This document shows, in pieces, positions 1,793 through 38,022 of a stretch of 38,393 bases of DNA (its first letter is position 1; every line of letters starts with the position of its first letter). The notes beneath the pieces are model-generated. The model saw only the letters and a program-made list of their open reading frames with translations. It did no database searches and had not been told where the DNA came from. The stretch is taken from NCBI GenBank assembly GCA_018066225.1, contig JAGHRU010000157.1:1-38393 (forward strand). Reading direction: 5' to 3'. The position numbers were made by a program, and so were the translations under genes. Origin of the DNA: Candidatus Equimonas enterica. GTDB taxonomy: Bacteria > Bacteroidota > Bacteroidia > Bacteroidales > Bacteroidaceae.

Positions 1793-1833
1793 ACGGCCTG
1801 CCCCTTCGGTACGTTCCGAATTGGGCAGGCCGT
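1793..1833. terminator. Stem-loop, 11-bp perfect stem ACGGCCTGCCC/GGGCAGGCCGT followed by AAAAA
   Basis: Inverted repeat read directly. A-rich flanks on both sides are compatible with a bidirectional terminator. Confidence 0.55.
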
Positions 1834-1896
1834 AAAAACTATCTGCGCAGACCGTTTGCACGATTTGCGCAGAAGAGAAAAATCATCTGCGCACCC
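1834..1896. repeat. Intergenic repeat site A: AAAAACTATCTGCGCAGACCG with further TGCGCAG / CTGCGCA copies
   Basis: Contains the 10-bp palindrome TCTGCGCAGA (1842-1851). Shares AAAAACTATCTG with sites at 14.18 and 18.09 kb. Confidence 0.55.
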
Positions 1897-5798: not shown

Positions 5799-5809
5799 AA
5801 TTATGGGCG

Positions 5810-5817
5810 CAAAGTTA
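5810..5817 (-). promoter_or_regulatory. Candidate Bacteroidetes -7 box (TAACTTTG on minus strand) for dapB
   Basis: CAAAGTTA on + strand, 11 nt upstream of the dapB ATG. No well-spaced -33 was seen. Confidence 0.45.
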
Positions 5818-5860
5818 TGAAATTTGCACCAAATACGCGCTGTATCTCGTTATTTATTTC

Positions 5861-5868
5861 TACTTTTG
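5861..5868 (+). promoter_or_regulatory. Candidate -7 box TACTTTTG upstream of ychF
   Basis: TAnnTTTG-type motif 27 nt before ATG at 5896. Confidence 0.4.
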
Positions 5869-5895
5869 CAGTGCAATTATAATTTTTTCACGATT

Positions 5896-6999
5896 ATGAG
5901 TTTACAATGTGGCATCGTCGGCTTGCCCAATGTCGGCAAATCGACCCTGTTCAACTGTCTGAGCAATGCGAAGGCACAGAGTGCCAACTTCCCTTTCTGC
6001 ACCATAGAGCCCAATGTGGGCGTCATCACTGTCCCCGACGAGCGTCTCGGCGTTTTGGCCGAACTGGTCCACCCGGGGCGTATCGTGCCCACGACGGTCG
6101 AAATCGTCGATATTGCAGGCTTGGTCAAAGGGGCCAGCAAGGGCGAAGGACTGGGCAACCAGTTCCTTGGCAACATCCGCGAGACAGACGCCATCATCCA
6201 TGTCTTGCGCTGCTTCGACGACCCCAACGTGGTGCATGTCGATGGCAGCGTAGATCCGCTGCGCGACAAGGAAATCATCGACGCCGAGCTCCAGCTCAAA
6301 GACCTCGAAACGGTAGAAAACCGCATCCGCAAGGTGGAGAAGGTGGCGCAGGTGGGCGGCGACAAGCAAGCCAAAGTGGAGTATGAGGTGCTCACGGCCA
6401 TCCGCGAAGCCCTCTTGCAGGGCAAGTCGGCGCGTAGCGTCACCTTTGAGTCCAAGGAGGAGCAGGCCGCCGTGCGTGGTGCGTTTCTGCTCACGAGCAA
6501 GCCTGTGCTCTATGTCTGCAATGTCGATGAAGGCTCTGCCGTCACGGGCAATGCCTATGTGGAGCAGGTGCGCGAGGCGGTGAAAGACGAGGGTGCGGAG
6601 GTGCTCGTGCTGGCTGCCCAGACGGAGGCCGACATCGCCGAGCTCGACAGTTACGAAGACCGTCAGGCGTTTCTCGCCGAGATAGGCTTGGAGGAGAGCG
6701 GCTGCGGCAGGCTCATCAAGACGGCCTACCGCATGCTGCAACTCGAGACCTTCATCACGGCTGGCGAGATGGAGGTGAAGGCGTGGACCTACCGCCGTGG
6801 CTGGAAAGCCCCGCAGTGTGCAGGGGTCATCCACACCGACTTTGAGCGTGGCTTCATCCGCGCCGAGGTCATCAAGTATGACGACTATGTACGCCTCGGC
6901 AGCGAAGCCGCCGTCCGCGAGGCGGGCTTGCTCCATGTGGAAGGCAAGGACTATGTCGTGCAGGACGGCGACATCATGCATTTCCGTTTCAACGTATGA
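5896..6999 (+). CDS. ychF: Redox-regulated ATPase/GTP-binding protein YchF
   Basis: MSLQCGIVGLPNVGKSTLFNCLSNAKAQSANFPFCTIEPNVGVITVPDERL; DIAGLVKGASKGEGLGNQFLGNIRE; C-terminal TGS-like domain. Confidence 0.97.
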   Translation: MSLQCGIVGLPNVGKSTLFNCLSNAKAQSANFPFCTIEPNVGVITVPDERLGVLAELVHPGRIVPTTVEIVDIAGLVKGASKGEGLGNQFLGNIRETDAIIHVLRCFDDPNVVHVDGSVDPLRDKEIIDAELQLKDLETVENRIRKVEKVAQVGGDKQAKVEYEVLTAIREALLQGKSARSVTFESKEEQAAVRGAFLLTSKPVLYVCNVDEGSAVTGNAYVEQVREAVKDEGAEVLVLAAQTEADIAELDSYEDRQAFLAEIGLEESGCGRLIKTAYRMLQLETFITAGEMEVKAWTYRRGWKAPQCAGVIHTDFERGFIRAEVIKYDDYVRLGSEAAVREAGLLHVEGKDYVVQDGDIMHFRFNV

Positions 7000-8801
7000 T
7001 CATCTGGGATCCCTCTATCGTAGCCTTTTCGCTGGGCGGCATCGTGGTGCGCTGGTACTCGCTCCTGTGGTGCATCGGCCTCTTTGCGGCTTGGTTTGTC
7101 GTGCAGCGGCTCTACCGCCATCAGCGCATCGCTGACAAGAAGTTCGAGCCCCTGTTTCTCTACTGCTTCCTCGGTGTGCTCATCGGAGCACGCCTTGGGC
7201 ACTGTCTGCTCTACGAGCCCGCCTACTTCCTCGCCCATCCCTTGGAAATGATACTGCCCATGCGCCACGACGCTGCGGGTGGCTGGCACTTCACGGGCTA
7301 TGCCGGCCTCGCCTCCCACGGCGGCACACTGGGCCTGATGCTCGCCCTTTGGCTCTATGTGCGTCGCTACAAGGTGGGGCTGCTGCGTGTGCTCGACTGC
7401 GTGGCCATCGCCACCCCTGCCACCGCCTGCTGCATCCGGCTGGGCAACCTCATGAACTCCGAGATAGTGGGCAAGGCTTGCAGCGCAGACTGGCCTTTGG
7501 GCTTTGTCTTCCAGCGTCTCGGCGAGACCTTCCCGCGCCATCCCGGCCAGCTCTACGAGGCCATGGCCTACCTCGTCTTCTTCGTCGTAGGCCTGCTCAT
7601 CTACCGTCGCCAAAGCCACCGGGTGGGTACGGGCTTCTACTTCGGCCTTTGCCTCACGAGTATCTTCACCTTCCGCTTCTTCGTGGAGTTTTTCAAGGAG
7701 GTGCAGGAGCCTTGGGAGGTGGCGATGCAGTCGGCCATTGGGCTCAACCAAGGCCAGTTGCTCTCGCTGCCCTTTGTCGCCATCGGGCTTTACTGCCTGA
7801 TGGGTGGGCGTCTGCTGCGCCGCCTGATGGCCTTCGGCGTGCTGTTCCTGTGCACAGGCTGCGGCCCAGCCAAGGACAAGGTGCGCATCAGCGTCAATAT
7901 CGATGGTGTGGAGCGCACCAACCTGCTGCTCTACGCCACGGAGAGTGCTGGCCGCGCCGCCCTTGACACCTTGAAGATAGAGGGCAGTGAAGGCCGCATA
8001 GAGTGTAGCCTCGACCAGCCGACCCTGCTCACCCTGCTCTTCCCCAACTTCACGACCCTGGTGCTCGTGGCGCGTCCGGGCGACGACATCGCGGTGCAGT
8101 GCGCCTCCTCGCGCCTGGCAGAAGCCGCTGTGACGGGCAATAACGACAACGACCTGCTCACCACGCTGCGCCAGCGCATAGCCCCGATGCGTCAAGCCGA
8201 CCGTGAACGTGAGGTGGCCACTTTCGTCCGCAGCCATGCCGAGACGATGGCGGCTGTGGCGGCCTTCGTGCAGTATTTTGCGGCTGCTGTGCCGCTCAGA
8301 GCCGAGCCTACGCGCTCGCTGCTCACGGCCTTGCAGCGCGCACAGCCCGACGACGCTGTGCTGCGCGCTGTATCCGACCGCCTCACCCCTTTGCTCGCTT
8401 CTGCCGAGGGCGCACGCTTGCCGCATTTCTCGGGCACTACGCTCTCGGGAGACAGTTTCAACAGCAAGGGCATACGCGGACGACGATCTGCCCTTGTCGT
8501 TTGGGCTTCCTGGGCAGACCGTAGTTACGCCATGCTGCGCGCCGTAGGCGAATGTCTCGCGGCGCAGCCTTCGCTCAGCGTTGTCACGGTGAGTTTCGAC
8601 ACCGAAAAGGAAAAGGCGGAGCACCTCCTCAGCAATGCCATGCTGCGCGGCGTGCCCACGCTCTGCGACACCAAGGGCATCGACTCTCCGCTCTACCGCA
8701 CCCTCGGCGTCACTGCGCTGCCCGCCGTCATCATCGTCGATAAGGCAGGCACTGTGGAGCGCGTGGTCTATGACGCGGCCGAGTTGAGAAAGTATTTGTA
8801 G
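6996..8801 (+). CDS. lgt: Fusion: prolipoprotein diacylglyceryl transferase (aa 1-~268) + lipoprotein signal peptide/lipobox + DUF4369-like + thioredoxin-like domain
   Basis: Lgt motifs: GYAGLASHGGTLGL, RLGNLMNSEIVG, PRHPGQLYEA. Then MGGRLLRRLMAFGVLFLCTGC|GPAKDK (lipobox Cys codon 7860-7862), followed by a thioredoxin-like region ALVVWASWADRSYAML...VTALPAVIIVD. No in-frame stop anywhere. ATGA overlap with ychF. Confidence 0.9.
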   Translation: MIIWDPSIVAFSLGGIVVRWYSLLWCIGLFAAWFVVQRLYRHQRIADKKFEPLFLYCFLGVLIGARLGHCLLYEPAYFLAHPLEMILPMRHDAAGGWHFTGYAGLASHGGTLGLMLALWLYVRRYKVGLLRVLDCVAIATPATACCIRLGNLMNSEIVGKACSADWPLGFVFQRLGETFPRHPGQLYEAMAYLVFFVVGLLIYRRQSHRVGTGFYFGLCLTSIFTFRFFVEFFKEVQEPWEVAMQSAIGLNQGQLLSLPFVAIGLYCLMGGRLLRRLMAFGVLFLCTGCGPAKDKVRISVNIDGVERTNLLLYATESAGRAALDTLKIEGSEGRIECSLDQPTLLTLLFPNFTTLVLVARPGDDIAVQCASSRLAEAAVTGNNDNDLLTTLRQRIAPMRQADREREVATFVRSHAETMAAVAAFVQYFAAAVPLRAEPTRSLLTALQRAQPDDAVLRAVSDRLTPLLASAEGARLPHFSGTTLSGDSFNSKGIRGRRSALVVWASWADRSYAMLRAVGECLAAQPSLSVVTVSFDTEKEKAEHLLSNAMLRGVPTLCDTKGIDSPLYRTLGVTALPAVIIVDKAGTVERVVYDAAELRKYL

Positions 8802-11926: not shown

Positions 11927-12022
11927 AAAGAGGTGCAACGCTGGACATCTTTTTCTTACAGATGGATGAGCATCATGTCGGACTTTTTGCGTATCTTTGC
12001 CGCGAATAACACATCACACCCT

Positions 12023-14152
12023 ATGAAACTACCCAAACCCCTGCTTTCCGCTGTGGCGACGACGCTCGTCTTGGCGGGATGTGCAACTGCAACAATGACG
12101 GACAATCCACAACAGCAATCAGCCAACAAGTTGCTCACCGAGAGCCCAAACCGCCACGGCATCGAGTCGTTTGGCGAAATCACCACCGACGACTACCGCG
12201 AAGCCTTGCAGGAGGGCATGCGAGAGCAGAAGGCCGAGATACAGGCCATCGTAGAGAGCAAGGAAAGCCCGACCTTTGCCAACACCATCGAGCCGATGGA
12301 CAAGAGCGGCAAACTCCTCAGGCGTGCCATGATGCCCTTCGAGGCACTCGACAACAGCAATTCCACGGCGGCCTCGCAAGCCTTGGCCGAAGAGATGGCA
12401 CCACTGCTCTCTGCCCATAGCGACAAGATCTACATGAACGACGCGCTCTTTCGGCGTGTGAAGCAGGTGTATGACGACAAGCCCGCCGGGCTGACACACG
12501 AGCAGACACGCGCCTTGGAGGAAATCTACAAGTCCTTCGTGCGCAGTGGTGCCAACCTGAGTGCGGCCGACAAGGCGCGCCTCATGGCCCTCAATCAGGA
12601 GATCAGCACGCTGGAGATACAGTTTGAGCAGAACCTGCTGCATGAGACCAACAATACCTTCGTCGTGGTAGATAGGCTGGAGGATCTCGCGGGTCTGCCC
12701 CAAGCCAATATCGATCGCGCTGCCGACATGGCCAAGCAGCAGGGACAGGAGGGCAAGTGGGCGTTCAACATGCAGCGCGCTTCGTGCAATCCCGTCTTGC
12801 AGTATTGCAGCAACCGCGAACTGCGCCGCCGCATCTACGACGCCTACTACAACCGTGGTAACGCAGGCGGCGCGCACGACAACAAAGCCATCTGCGCCCG
12901 TCTGGTACGCCTCCGCCTGGAGCGCGCCAAGTTGATGGGCTTTGACAACTGCGCCGCCCAGATACTGGACAAGCGCATGGCCAAGCGCCCCGAGGCCGTG
13001 TATGCCCTGCTCGACCAGATATGGGAGCCGGCCGTGAAGAAGGCGCGCGAAGAACTATCCGACATTCGCGAGGAGATGCTCAAAGACGGTCTCGACTGCG
13101 AGCCCGAAGGCTGGGATTATGCCTACTACGCCGACCGCGCCCGCAAGGCACGCTTCGACTTTGACGAGAAAGAGGCCTCGCAATACTTTGAAATCCACAA
13201 CGTGCTCCGCGGCATCTTCTATGTGGCAAACAAACTCTACGGCGTGACCTTCAAGGAGGTGACGCCCGACGTGCCGGCCTACGAAGCCACGGCACAGGCC
13301 TGGGAGGTCTATGACAAGGACGGCAGCCTGCTGGCCGTATTCTACAGCGACTACTACCCGCGCGACGGTAAGCGTGCCGGCGCATGGTGCACCCACTTCC
13401 GCAGCCAGAGTTATGCCGACGGCAAGCGCGTAGAGCCCGTGGTGGTCAATGTGTGCAGTATGACGCCTCCCTCGGCCGACATGCCTGCCTTGCAGAGCAT
13501 CGACAATGTCCAGACGATGTTTCACGAGTTTGGCCACGCTCTGCACGGCTTCATGCGAGACGTCAATTACGAGGCCGTGGGCGATGTGGAGCGCGACTTC
13601 GTAGAACTGCCCTCGCAAATCAACGAGCATTGGGCCATGGAGCCCGAAGTGCTGGCCGTCTATGCCAAGCACTACAAGACGGGCGAGGTGATGCCCGAAG
13701 CACTCGTAAGCAAGATAGAGGAGAGCGGCAAGTATGGCCAGGGCTTTGCCACCGTGGAATACCTCGCCGCCTCCTACGTCGATATGGATCTCCACACCCT
13801 GACCTCGGTGCCTGATGACCTCGACGTGATGCAGTTTGAAGAGGAGAAAATGGCCGCCCGTGGCATTCCCCGTCAGATACTGCCGCGCTACCGTGTGACC
13901 AATTTCAGCCACACGATGGGTGGTGGCTACACGGCTGGCTACTACTCCTACATCTGGGCCGAAGTGCTCGATGCCGATGGCTTTGAAGCCTTCAAGGAGA
14001 CCGGCGACATCTTCAACCAGGAAGTGGCCGACCGCTTCCGCCGCTATGTCCTCACCCCGGGCGGCATCGATGACGGCATGACGATGTATAAGCGGTTCCG
14101 TGGTGCCGAGCCCAAGATAGACGCTCTGCTCAAAGGCCGCGGCTTGAAGTAA
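12023..14152 (+). CDS. M3 family metallopeptidase (Dcp/oligopeptidase A-like), predicted lipoprotein
   Basis: MKLPKPLLSAVATTLVLAGCATA lipobox; zinc motif MFHEFGHALHGF; C-terminal M3-type sequence GGGYTAGYYSYIWAEVLDADGFEAFKE. Confidence 0.93.
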   Translation: MKLPKPLLSAVATTLVLAGCATATMTDNPQQQSANKLLTESPNRHGIESFGEITTDDYREALQEGMREQKAEIQAIVESKESPTFANTIEPMDKSGKLLRRAMMPFEALDNSNSTAASQALAEEMAPLLSAHSDKIYMNDALFRRVKQVYDDKPAGLTHEQTRALEEIYKSFVRSGANLSAADKARLMALNQEISTLEIQFEQNLLHETNNTFVVVDRLEDLAGLPQANIDRAADMAKQQGQEGKWAFNMQRASCNPVLQYCSNRELRRRIYDAYYNRGNAGGAHDNKAICARLVRLRLERAKLMGFDNCAAQILDKRMAKRPEAVYALLDQIWEPAVKKAREELSDIREEMLKDGLDCEPEGWDYAYYADRARKARFDFDEKEASQYFEIHNVLRGIFYVANKLYGVTFKEVTPDVPAYEATAQAWEVYDKDGSLLAVFYSDYYPRDGKRAGAWCTHFRSQSYADGKRVEPVVVNVCSMTPPSADMPALQSIDNVQTMFHEFGHALHGFMRDVNYEAVGDVERDFVELPSQINEHWAMEPEVLAVYAKHYKTGEVMPEALVSKIEESGKYGQGFATVEYLAASYVDMDLHTLTSVPDDLDVMQFEEEKMAARGIPRQILPRYRVTNFSHTMGGGYTAGYYSYIWAEVLDADGFEAFKETGDIFNQEVADRFRRYVLTPGGIDDGMTMYKRFRGAEPKIDALLKGRGLK

Positions 14153-14166
14153 ATCACACAAAACCC

Positions 14167-14244
14167 GTCTGCCCTCACAGGAAAAACTATCTGCCCTTGT
14201 CGTTAAGACGATGAGGGCAGATAGTTTTTCCTGTGAGAGCAGAC
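14167..14244. repeat. Site B: 78-nt near-perfect hairpin of the intergenic repeat family (probable bidirectional terminator)
   Basis: Arms 14167-14197 and 14214-14244 pair over 31 positions with one mismatch. The loop continues pairing through two G-T wobbles and TCGT/ACGA to a TAAG tetraloop. Confidence 0.85.
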
Positions 14245-14294
14245 CGTGAGAAGGCCTTTGTTGTGTGCTTTTAGGTAGCCGAGAAATTCATTTT

Positions 14295-14327: not shown

Positions 14328-14395
14328 CTAAATTTGCAAAAATTTTGCGGAGTCTGTCCCACAACTTCGCACCTGCCAGCCCCACTGATTACGGT

Positions 14396-15724
14396 ATGAG
14401 ATTGACATATTTGACCACAGGTAACGCGCGCACCCGTAGAGCCAAGCAAAACATCCTGGCTATGCTGGGGCTAAAAGGCGCGAGCATCGCTTGCCATCTC
14501 GTGATGGTGCCGCTTGTGTTGCACTATGTCAATGCCGACATCTACGGGATATGGCTGACGCTGAGTTCCATGGTGGCATGGATTAGTTTTCTGGACATCG
14601 GCATCAACAATGGGCTGAAAAACAAACTGGCCGAGGCACTGGCCCACGACGACACGGCGTTGGCCAAGCAATACGTCAGTACGACCTATGCGCTGCTCTC
14701 CCTGATATTCATGCCCGCGCTGGTCATCCTGCTGATGGTCACCCCACTTGTGCATTGGCACGAAGTGCTCAATGTGCCGGCAGCCTCTGCCGACGGTCTG
14801 AGTATTGCGGTCGCCATCATCATCGCTTACTTCTGCATCAACTTCATCCTCTCTACGATCAACGTGGTGCTGATGGCGGTGCAACGGCCCGCCTATTCGT
14901 CGTGTCTGAACTTGTGTCAGCAGTTGCTCTCGTTGGCCATCATCGCCTTGTTTACCTTCATGACCAAGGGCAATCTGGTGCTGCTGTGCATAGGGCTGTG
15001 CGTGGCGCCCATAGTCGACGTGTCGCTGTTCAACATCTTCTTTTTCGGCCGCCGCTATCGGCAGATAGCCCCTTCGCTCGGCAGCGTCCGTTTCAGCCTT
15101 GCTCCTGCGTTGCTCCGGCTCGGTGTCAGGTTCTTCATCATCCAGATAGCGGGCATCGTGCAGTATCAGATGGTGAACTTCCTCATCATACGCCACTACG
15201 GCTCTGCGGAAGTCACGGCCTACAACATAGCCTTCAAATACTTCAACGTGCTCTACATGGTGTGGGGCATACTGGTCACGCCCATTTGGGCCGCCGTGAC
15301 AGATGCTGTGACCAGAGGTGAAATTAGTTGGATTGTCACGACTGTGAAGCACTATCAGCGGCTCTTCTGCCTCTTCGTCGTGGGCGACATCGTCTTGCTG
15401 CTGCTCTCGCCCGTGGCCTACGACTGGTGGGTGGGCTCCGCCGTTGAGGTGTCTTTCTCCATCTCCTTGTGGGTCATGATATTCCACATCACCATGATGT
15501 TTGGCATGGTCTATGTCAATGTGCTCAATGGCCTTGGCCTGCTCAATGTGCAGACCATTGCTTGTCTGTGTTCGCCTGTGCTGTTTCTCGCGCTGTGTAC
15601 CCTCCTGCGCCGCTACGGCATGGGCGTAGAGTCTATCATCATCGCGTCGGTAGCCGCCAACTTCAATGGCTTGATATTGGCACCGATACAATACCATCTT
15701 TATGTCAAGAGTGCAACCAGATAA
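14396..15724 (+). CDS. Polysaccharide/O-antigen flippase-like multi-TM protein (MATE/Wzx superfamily)
   Basis: Starts MRLTYLTTGNARTRRAKQNILAMLGLKGASIACHLVMVPLVLHYVNADIYGIWLTL, a typical Wzx-like N-terminus, with many TM segments. ATG at 14396. Confidence 0.82.
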   Translation: MRLTYLTTGNARTRRAKQNILAMLGLKGASIACHLVMVPLVLHYVNADIYGIWLTLSSMVAWISFLDIGINNGLKNKLAEALAHDDTALAKQYVSTTYALLSLIFMPALVILLMVTPLVHWHEVLNVPAASADGLSIAVAIIIAYFCINFILSTINVVLMAVQRPAYSSCLNLCQQLLSLAIIALFTFMTKGNLVLLCIGLCVAPIVDVSLFNIFFFGRRYRQIAPSLGSVRFSLAPALLRLGVRFFIIQIAGIVQYQMVNFLIIRHYGSAEVTAYNIAFKYFNVLYMVWGILVTPIWAAVTDAVTRGEISWIVTTVKHYQRLFCLFVVGDIVLLLLSPVAYDWWVGSAVEVSFSISLWVMIFHITMMFGMVYVNVLNGLGLLNVQTIACLCSPVLFLALCTLLRRYGMGVESIIIASVAANFNGLILAPIQYHLYVKSATR

Positions 15725-16931: not shown

Positions 16932-18089
16932 ATGACCGTATATTTCGATTACCAATGTTTCCAGCAAAAGGTTGGCGGTGTGTCAAGATGCTTCTGCGAA
17001 CTCATCAAGCACATGCCCGCCGACATAGCGTGCAAGATACTTGTCAAGGCATCCGAGAACTTGTACTTGCGGGACCCGCAGTTGTTGCCCGACCTGCCGA
17101 GCCCGCGACTGACATACGACAACTATGCGGGGGCGATAAGTTTCAAGGGACGTCGCCGCCTCTTCACCTGGCTCGACCGCAATGTCCCGTTTTTTCCTTC
17201 TTTCACGTCCATCAACAGGCGATATGCGAAGGCTGCGCTCGCTGCGGGCGACTTCGACATCTGCCATGTGACGATGCAGGAAGAGACCTGTCTGTTGGAC
17301 TACCTCGCAGGCAAGCCTTTCGTCTTCACCGTGCACGACATGATATGGGAATTGTTCCCCACGCCTTTACGGCAGAAGTGGAGCAGGCAGAAGCGACTGT
17401 TCTGCCAAAAGGCCGCCCATATCGTCGCAGTGTCGGGGCACACGAAGCATGATCTCATGAGACTGTGGCAGATACCGGAAGAGAATATAACGGTGATTTA
17501 TCACGGCGCACCAGATATGAGTGACCATACCTACACCGACATTGTCGGACAACCCTATTTCTTGTTTGTCGGTCGGCGAGAGGGTTACAAAAATTTCGAG
17601 CAGACGTTGTACGCCTTCGCCCATTTCCATCAGCACCATCCCGAGGTGAAGTTGCTGTGTACGGGAAGTCCCTTCACGCCAAGAGAGCAGCGCATGATTG
17701 ATGCGCTACATCTGACGGACAAGGTGCGGTGCCGCTATGTGTCGGATGAGGACTTATACAATTTATACCACTATGCCATTGCTTTCATCTTCCCGTCAAT
17801 CTACGAAGGCTTTGGCATACCGATACTCGAAGCCTTTGCCAATGGCTGTCCTGTGCTGCTCAATGACACGAGTTGCTTCCCCGAGATAGGTGGTGACGCC
17901 GCCGTGTACTTCCATGCCGACTTGCAAGGTGACTCTGATTTGAGTGAGAAGATGGCGTACATCTATTCCCTGCCTGCTGACCAAAGGAGGCGGATAGTCG
18001 ATAGAGGCAGGCAGCGGGCAGAGCAGTTCACTTGGCACGCCGCCGCGCAACGCTTGGCAGAAGTGTATCGTAAGGTCGTGGGCAGATAG
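16932..18089 (+). CDS. Glycosyltransferase family 4 (GT-B) protein
   Basis: GREGYKNFEQTLYAFAHFHQHHPEVKLLCTG and FPSIYEGFGIPILEAFANGCPVLLNDTSCFPEIGGDAAVYFHAD. Confidence 0.9.
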   Translation: MTVYFDYQCFQQKVGGVSRCFCELIKHMPADIACKILVKASENLYLRDPQLLPDLPSPRLTYDNYAGAISFKGRRRLFTWLDRNVPFFPSFTSINRRYAKAALAAGDFDICHVTMQEETCLLDYLAGKPFVFTVHDMIWELFPTPLRQKWSRQKRLFCQKAAHIVAVSGHTKHDLMRLWQIPEENITVIYHGAPDMSDHTYTDIVGQPYFLFVGRREGYKNFEQTLYAFAHFHQHHPEVKLLCTGSPFTPREQRMIDALHLTDKVRCRYVSDEDLYNLYHYAIAFIFPSIYEGFGIPILEAFANGCPVLLNDTSCFPEIGGDAAVYFHADLQGDSDLSEKMAYIYSLPADQRRRIVDRGRQRAEQFTWHAAAQRLAEVYRKVVGR

Positions 18090-18165
18090 GAAAAACTATC
18101 TGCCCTTGTTGTTAAAACGGTCTGCGCAGACCGGTTTTACTATCTGCGCAAATCGTGAAAAGGCG
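18080..18165. repeat. Site C: intergenic repeat family (GGGCAGATAG hairpin + CGGTCTGCGCAGACCG palindrome)
   Basis: GGGCAGATAG (18080-18089) pairs with CTATCTGCCC (18096-18105). 16-bp palindrome at 18118-18133. Shares the 21-mer GGAAAAACTATCTGCCCTTGT with site B. Confidence 0.85.
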
Positions 18166-36180: not shown

Positions 36181-36231
36181 CACGGTGTAGAAGGGGGTTA
36201 AGTGTGAGTGTGTGAAGACGGATAACGATAT

Positions 36232-36333
36232 GGGCAGACACGCCAAACGCTCTGCCCTTGTCGTGCGCTTGGTCTGGGCAGATAGTGTCGCGCGTCTGGG
36301 CAGATAGTTTTAAGGGGCATAGTCTGCCCTTGT
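36232..36333. repeat. Site D: intergenic repeat family with alternating GGGCAGA / TCTGCCC units in the probable 5' leader of the GH3 gene
   Basis: GGGCAGA 36232, TCTGCCCTTGTCGT 36251, direct repeats GTCTGGGCAGATAG at 36272-36285 and 36294-36307, TCTGCCCTTG 36324. Confidence 0.75.
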
Positions 36334-37982: not shown

Positions 37983-38022
37983 CAGTTCTGCCCAAGTCCG
38001 AAAGGGGACTTGGGCAGAACTG
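37983..38022. terminator. Site E: 17-bp perfect hairpin CAGTTCTGCCCAAGTCC/GGACTTGGGCAGAACTG, 6-nt loop, TTTT tail
   Basis: Inverted repeat read directly, between convergent cysS and the minus-strand nuclease-like ORF. Confidence 0.85.

Follow-up and report, generated by a model that had tools for sequence, protein, structure and literature searches.

Four palindromic sites in exact 22-bp phase form a dispersed intergenic element in Candidatus Equimonas enterica, consistent with a protein-binding array

Downstream of an M3-family peptidase gene in Candidatus Equimonas enterica lies a stretch of DNA that can pair with itself almost perfectly, raising the question of whether this hairpin is itself the conserved feature. 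The window analysed here is the whole 38,393-nt stretch of contig JAGHRU010000157.1 (assembly GCA_018066225.1). The hairpin-forming element starts 16 bp past the stop codon of the peptidase gene, and a promoter-like site of the TANNTTTG type, TAAATTTG (about 14329-14336), lies between it and the next ORF. The arms of the inverted repeat (14167-14203 and 14208-14244) are 37 nt long, 92% complementary and separated by the 4-nt loop TAAG, in agreement with a sequence-only reading that had described a 78-nt hairpin of about 37 bp with a tetraloop, one mismatch and two wobbles. RNA folding over 14150-14260, one of the checks proposed in that reading, gives a minimum free energy of -65.1 kcal/mol versus a mean of -23.0 (sd 3.4) for shuffled sequences (z = -12.39), a value reached by none of 200 shuffles. 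The A5 and T5 tracts lie within the stem, as had been noted, and the suspicion that this is not an intrinsic terminator is borne out: the stem is 37 bp long, no U-tract follows it, and related arrays are found in divergent regions too. The conserved feature is nevertheless not the hairpin itself but a ~90-bp intergenic element of four sites.

The stem of the hairpin is made up of four sites in 22-bp phase (Table 1), an arrangement that recurs genome-wide. The element consists of four 10-bp palindromes, TCTGSSCAGA, at exact 22-bp spacing and in any orientation. The core common to the copies is the 10-bp palindrome TCTGCGCAGA, of which usually one good half, TCTGC[CG]C, is retained. When the 111-bp stretch around the hairpin was searched against its own genome, 52 matches on many contigs were returned. 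Within the window, half-sites in the same orientation (+/+ and -/-) are 22 bp apart, those in -/+ orientation 19 bp and those in +/- orientation 25 bp, all of which become 22 bp on a common 10-bp frame. In a 323-kb sample, with stretches partly chosen for known copies, spacings between sites fall on multiples of 22 bp: there are 100 cases of 22 bp, 61 of 44 bp, 29 of 66 bp and a single one of 88 bp, and no other spacing is seen more than three times. Counted over the whole genome, the pattern TCTGCSC-N15-TCTGCSC occurs 226 times and the reversed control pattern once. In-phase runs, scored with a weight matrix trained independently on other loci, comprise four sites in 27 cases, three in nine, two in six and five in one, with none longer. 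Since 45 arrays were counted in 323 kb, ~260 elements are expected in the 1.85 Mb of the genome (an 86%-complete draft with genes called by a simple codon model), a figure that is rough because some of the sampled contigs were picked for carrying copies. The window motif is absent from all 392 of the order's other genomes that were searched, and a search for the exact motif in named public genomes and viral sequences gave only two unrelated matches at chance level.

An information profile over 40 aligned copies places the limits of conservation at -7 to +82 around the first site, with a sharp drop beyond. The layout is AAAAC NA - site - YNGTGAAAACTA - site - YCGTTNAAACGA - site - TAGTTTTCACGG - site - TCGTTTT. 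The element is thus dyad-symmetric overall, with ends AAAAC...GTTTT, and its units are symmetric as well.

Table 1. Elements, sites and adjoining genes in the window (. = no strand assigned)
Feature	Coordinates	Strand	Description
M3-family peptidase gene (Dcp-like)	11933..14152	+	upstream of hairpin-forming element
Hairpin-forming tetrad	14161..14250	.	~90 bp, four sites in 22-bp phase, near-perfect 37-bp hairpin
Site 1 TCTGCCCTCA	14168..14177	+	half-palindrome TCTGCSC
Site 2 TCTGCCCTTG	14190..14199	+	motif match
Site 3 TGAGGGCAGA	14212..14221	-	motif match
Site 4 TGAGAGCAGA	14234..14243	-	one letter from strict motif
ORF without Pfam match	14345..15724	+	downstream of hairpin-forming element
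Second tetrad	1820..1895	.	sites 1820 (degenerate), 1842, 1864, 1886; convergent genes either side
Third tetrad	18077..18152	.	sites 18077, 18099, 18121, 18143; convergent genes; covers last 12 bases of upstream gene
Fourth tetrad	36229..36304	.	sites 36229, 36251, 36273, 36295; divergent intergenic region, upstream of cysS
Two-site (half) element	37987..38018	.	phase 22; between cysS 3' end and convergent gene

The sampled arrays are intergenic in all but one case. The exception consists of two in-phase TCTGCSC sites at 8487-8518, within a predicted coding gene (6996-8801), which may reflect chance or an insertion in the ORF. By flanking genes, 25 arrays are in tandem, 10 in convergent and 7 in divergent regions, and 2 lie at contig edges; the distance from array to gene 3' end has a median of 62 bp. 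Because array positions relative to genes are this mixed, a single regulatory role is not indicated. At the loci examined, no gene turned up as a neighbour common to the arrays. The idea that every array has a conserved promoter facing inward was also considered and set aside; such a promoter is present in Bacteroides and absent in the window genome, where TANNTTTG near arrays points inward in 10 cases versus outward in 22. Between adjacent arrays on contig C117 (L072) a mobile gene was likewise discounted, the genes there being ordinary or having no Pfam match. The same contig carries a segmental duplication of a promoter region and its adjoining tetrads (L072:1859-2200 and 5800-6120).

The peptidase gene shares 87% DNA identity with genome G009 (L074), other loci giving ~68-76% or no match, and this high identity possibly reflects horizontal transfer or unusual conservation. 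Most of the remaining window genes that were compared have their closest relatives at only ~67-76% DNA identity, too distant for a clean empty site to be recognised, and the window cysS is 68-71% identical to cysS of Parabacteroides, Phocaeicola, Prevotella and Bacteroides. Downstream of its dcp orthologue, G009 has an ordinary short hairpin, and the next gene also differs from that of the window. As a source of shared empty sites G009 was abandoned, the sampled stretches having no common loci except dcp.

Tetrads are present in common at an orthologous site in Bacteroides. The Bacteroides CACTNNAGTG family is represented here by 22 distinct elements, every one of which has four sites. One of its tetrads, found via the flanking gene, lies upstream of an HU-HIG gene (PF18291) in several species. 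In diverged pairs of these orthologous tetrads, site cores differ by 3-16%, spacers mostly by 39-47%, site centres in most pairs by 50-88%, and flanks by about 25-35%, and no indels were found within the 76 bp. Fisher tests of core versus the rest of the tetrad, which cover this one orthologous locus group, gave p from 2e-2 to 2e-5. Conserved site cores, free spacers and a fixed phase are as would be predicted for a protein-binding array. Immediately upstream of the tetrad a conserved promoter-like sequence, TTGTTTT...TATCTTTG, reads into it; at L207:39920-40126 and its orthologues the tetrad lies between this sequence and the HU-HIG gene. As members of a DNA-binding family, HU-HIG proteins would be candidate partners. 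As a universal partner of the arrays, the HU-HIG neighbour was dismissed, since the association holds for one orthologous group only.

The same architecture is built from other sequences in other taxa. When non-coding DNA was scanned for periodicity without a preset motif, 16 other species of the genus together yielded 16 arrays with a 21-bp period and 14 with a 22-bp period, with two or fewer at each other period. In five species from other genera of the family there were 2 arrays at 21 bp, 7 at 22 bp and none at other periods. Prevotella sp. oral taxon 299 (400 kb) has 16 arrays at 22 bp and at most one at any other period, and Bacteroides finegoldii, Phocaeicola massiliensis and Parabacteroides distasonis have one or two arrays each, all at 21 or 22 bp. 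In ten other families of Bacteroidales the scan found no peak at 21 or 22 bp. Among genus relatives, automatic counts for period 21/22 gave three units in 17 arrays, four in 14, five in two and six in one, versus a single four-unit array among 50 at other periods; the counter is conservative, and arrays read by eye mostly show four units. The units are mostly palindromic and their sequences unrelated: GTTACAAACTTTGTAAC (G047), TTCGTCCGCGGACGAAT (G035), AGTTTCCC-GGGAAACT (G116) and CACTNNAGTG in Bacteroides. This four-palindrome layout with unrelated sequences across the Bacteroides/Prevotella group points to a putative, undescribed class of protein-binding sites.

Judged from sequence and geometry, the element is on balance probably a DNA-level tetra-operator, to which a dimeric protein would bind cooperatively. 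The two marks of an operator array were found: dyad sites in helical phase, and site cores conserved in preference to their surroundings. Each ~22-bp unit would be a palindromic site for one dimer of a sequence-specific DNA-binding protein, and four such dimers would bind cooperatively along one helix face (21-22 bp being two turns), spanning ~88 bp. Array families, each with its own motif, would be scattered between genes in the Bacteroidaceae/Prevotella group and in Parabacteroides. The likely consequence of binding would be local chromosome organisation or bridging, and silencing may be another. Where an array sits just downstream of a promoter, e.g. at the Bacteroides HU-HIG gene, operator or roadblock control could result. 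A wider proposal, possible but put forward tentatively, is that genomes of the Bacteroidaceae and allies each hold several tetra-palindromic families, and that every such family has a dedicated reader, one paralogue of a fast-evolving group of DNA-binding proteins that would organise or regulate the chromosome. Different genera would then keep the architecture and exchange the sequence that is recognised. If the operator interpretation is right, the intergenic DNA of major gut and oral bacteria holds a large, regular and unnamed class of protein-binding arrays, and the combination of constant geometry (four sites, two turns apart) with a changing motif offers a handle for protein pulldown and for asking if the binder packs, bridges or silences the chromosome. 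Striking hairpins in such genomes may then be by-products of phased DNA sites and not RNA genes.

A role in RNA, with transcribed tetrads folding into long hairpins that would shield the 3' ends of mRNAs, act as terminators or serve as RNase III substrates, is improbable. The strong fold of the window copy speaks for it, as do the proximity of gene 3' ends and the promoter-like sequence reading into the Bacteroides tetrad. The window copy is, however, the strongest folder among the sampled elements (-66 kcal versus a median of -38.7), and real elements have no folding advantage over chimeras in which blocks were exchanged between loci (-37.6 versus -38.0). Covariation was found neither between sites 1 and 4 or sites 2 and 3 nor between spacers 1 and 3; in an alignment of 28 elements the long-hairpin structure does not outscore shuffles (357/500); RNAalifold returned no consensus structure for the aligned elements, and the hairpin region has no Rfam match. 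Seven of 42 arrays are in divergent regions, distant from any 3' end, and the U-tract is absent. A different fold, with two 14-bp hairpins side by side, does show weak covariation (7/500 shuffles), favouring an RNA role; the adjacent sites 1-2 and 3-4 behave as inverted copies with a weak covariation signal (7/500 and 1/500 shuffles), which counts against the operator reading, and local inverted copying would also give rise to such a signal. Since the units are palindromes, some site combinations pair over their whole length, and the long hairpin of the window is a by-product of palindromic units placed head-to-head. The small-RNA precursor or RNase III substrate suggested by the sequence-only reading therefore finds no support as a general function. 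A lone hairpin, terminator or small RNA was rejected, ~260 copies sharing phase and site cores but not pairing. Another long near-perfect hairpin formed by phased 21-bp units, like that of the window, was seen in G016 (L135:2640-2740).

More weight attaches to a selfish origin, although it too is rather unlikely: the tetrad would be a miniature, non-autonomous REP/MITE-like element, e.g. a fusion of two transposon ends, each with two 22-bp recognition sites, moved by an unknown enzyme and without host function. Some pairs of copies at unrelated loci have cores 84-93% identical and flanks at or near background (84% inside and 34-36% outside for the pair L008/L023), copies number in the hundreds with family-specific motifs, and the element has global dyad symmetry. 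Blocks within elements are linked beyond block-shuffled sets (P 0.002-0.004), and since this linkage shows tetrads to be partly related by descent, copying has some part, with a number of tetrads copied whole. The earlier suggestion of a MITE-like insertion thus holds insofar as copies are dispersed, non-coding, bounded and intergenic at unrelated loci, and fails as regards an autonomous partner with the same terminal inverted repeats; no transposase flanked by element ends was found at the loci examined. Mobilisation by a RAYT was rejected on the absence of Y1_Tnp (PF01797) from the window genome (86% complete); of 58 genomes in the genus, 30 also lack the family, array-bearing species included. 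Fused transposon ends predict half-elements and transposases flanked by two-site arrays, and neither occurs among the Bacteroides matches. At the orthologous site, moreover, spacers drift while site cores stay. Dispersal of the tetrads may well be REP/MITE-like even if the sites are functional. Slippage of a palindromic sequence into short, functionless tandem arrays, a neutral minisatellite, is very improbable. Some arrays in other species do have near-identical units (Prevotella oral taxon 299, L197:22726; G053, L141:7502), but slippage does not put a single motif at ~260 loci, cap arrays at four units or produce conservation specific to the sites, and in direct-similarity tests the units of one array do not clearly resemble each other more than they resemble units of different arrays.

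Viewed as an operator array, the element can be compared with known systems. Plasmid-origin iterons and the TnsB-site arrays of Tn7 ends likewise set protein-binding sites of ~22 bp, about four of them, in helical phase; these are direct repeats at one locus beside their own initiator or transposase gene, whereas the present arrays are palindromic, solitary and number in the hundreds. In the openly accessible literature on 22-bp repeats in Prevotella and Bacteroidales, no description of four-site 21/22-bp palindromic arrays was found. REP/BIME/REPIN sequences, palindromes tagged GTAG or CGTC, are similar as short palindromic intergenic units in hundreds of copies, lineage-specific families and arrays (PMC3733652). 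The present element differs in its fixed four units, its fixed 21/22-bp phase and the lack of a RAYT in the genome, and its ends carry no GTAG or CGTC tag. BrickBuilt, a MITE minisatellite in Porphyromonas gingivalis, consists of direct repeats of 23 nt, present in 1 to 22.8 copies, together with a leader and a tail that bear IS-like terminal inverted repeats (PMC4596501). It is likewise an intergenic, dispersed repeat of Bacteroidales with a ~22-23-nt unit, but the present element has 22-bp palindromes in runs of at most four to five, unconserved flanks and no leader or tail. In P. gingivalis W83, 22-nt tandem repeats are mentioned without location or structure (PMC4596501). PINSR of Prevotella intermedia/nigrescens is a 188-bp intergenic repeat of about 180 copies, lineage-specific and without a transposase (PMC4755523), all features in which it resembles the present element; what sets it apart is its description as one consensus of 188 bp that lacks terminal inverted repeats, with no four-palindrome phase reported (PMC4755523). 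PINSR could be related to the four-palindrome arrays.

Two further arrangements were seen beside arrays in other genomes. In G047, composite clusters at L117:12160-12460, L118:19300-19530 and L119:17900-18130 join a 4 x 21-bp array of GTTACAAACTTTGTAAC to 22-bp units with TCTGCGCAGA, the core of the window family. A second dispersed repeat, of 110-150 bp with ATCTCTCAT units, accompanies Bacteroides tetrads at L207:39704-39816 (Bacteroides finegoldii), L232, L239, L252, L257 and L261. In the near-identical genome G797, 82 bp of this repeat are missing between two 11-bp direct repeats.
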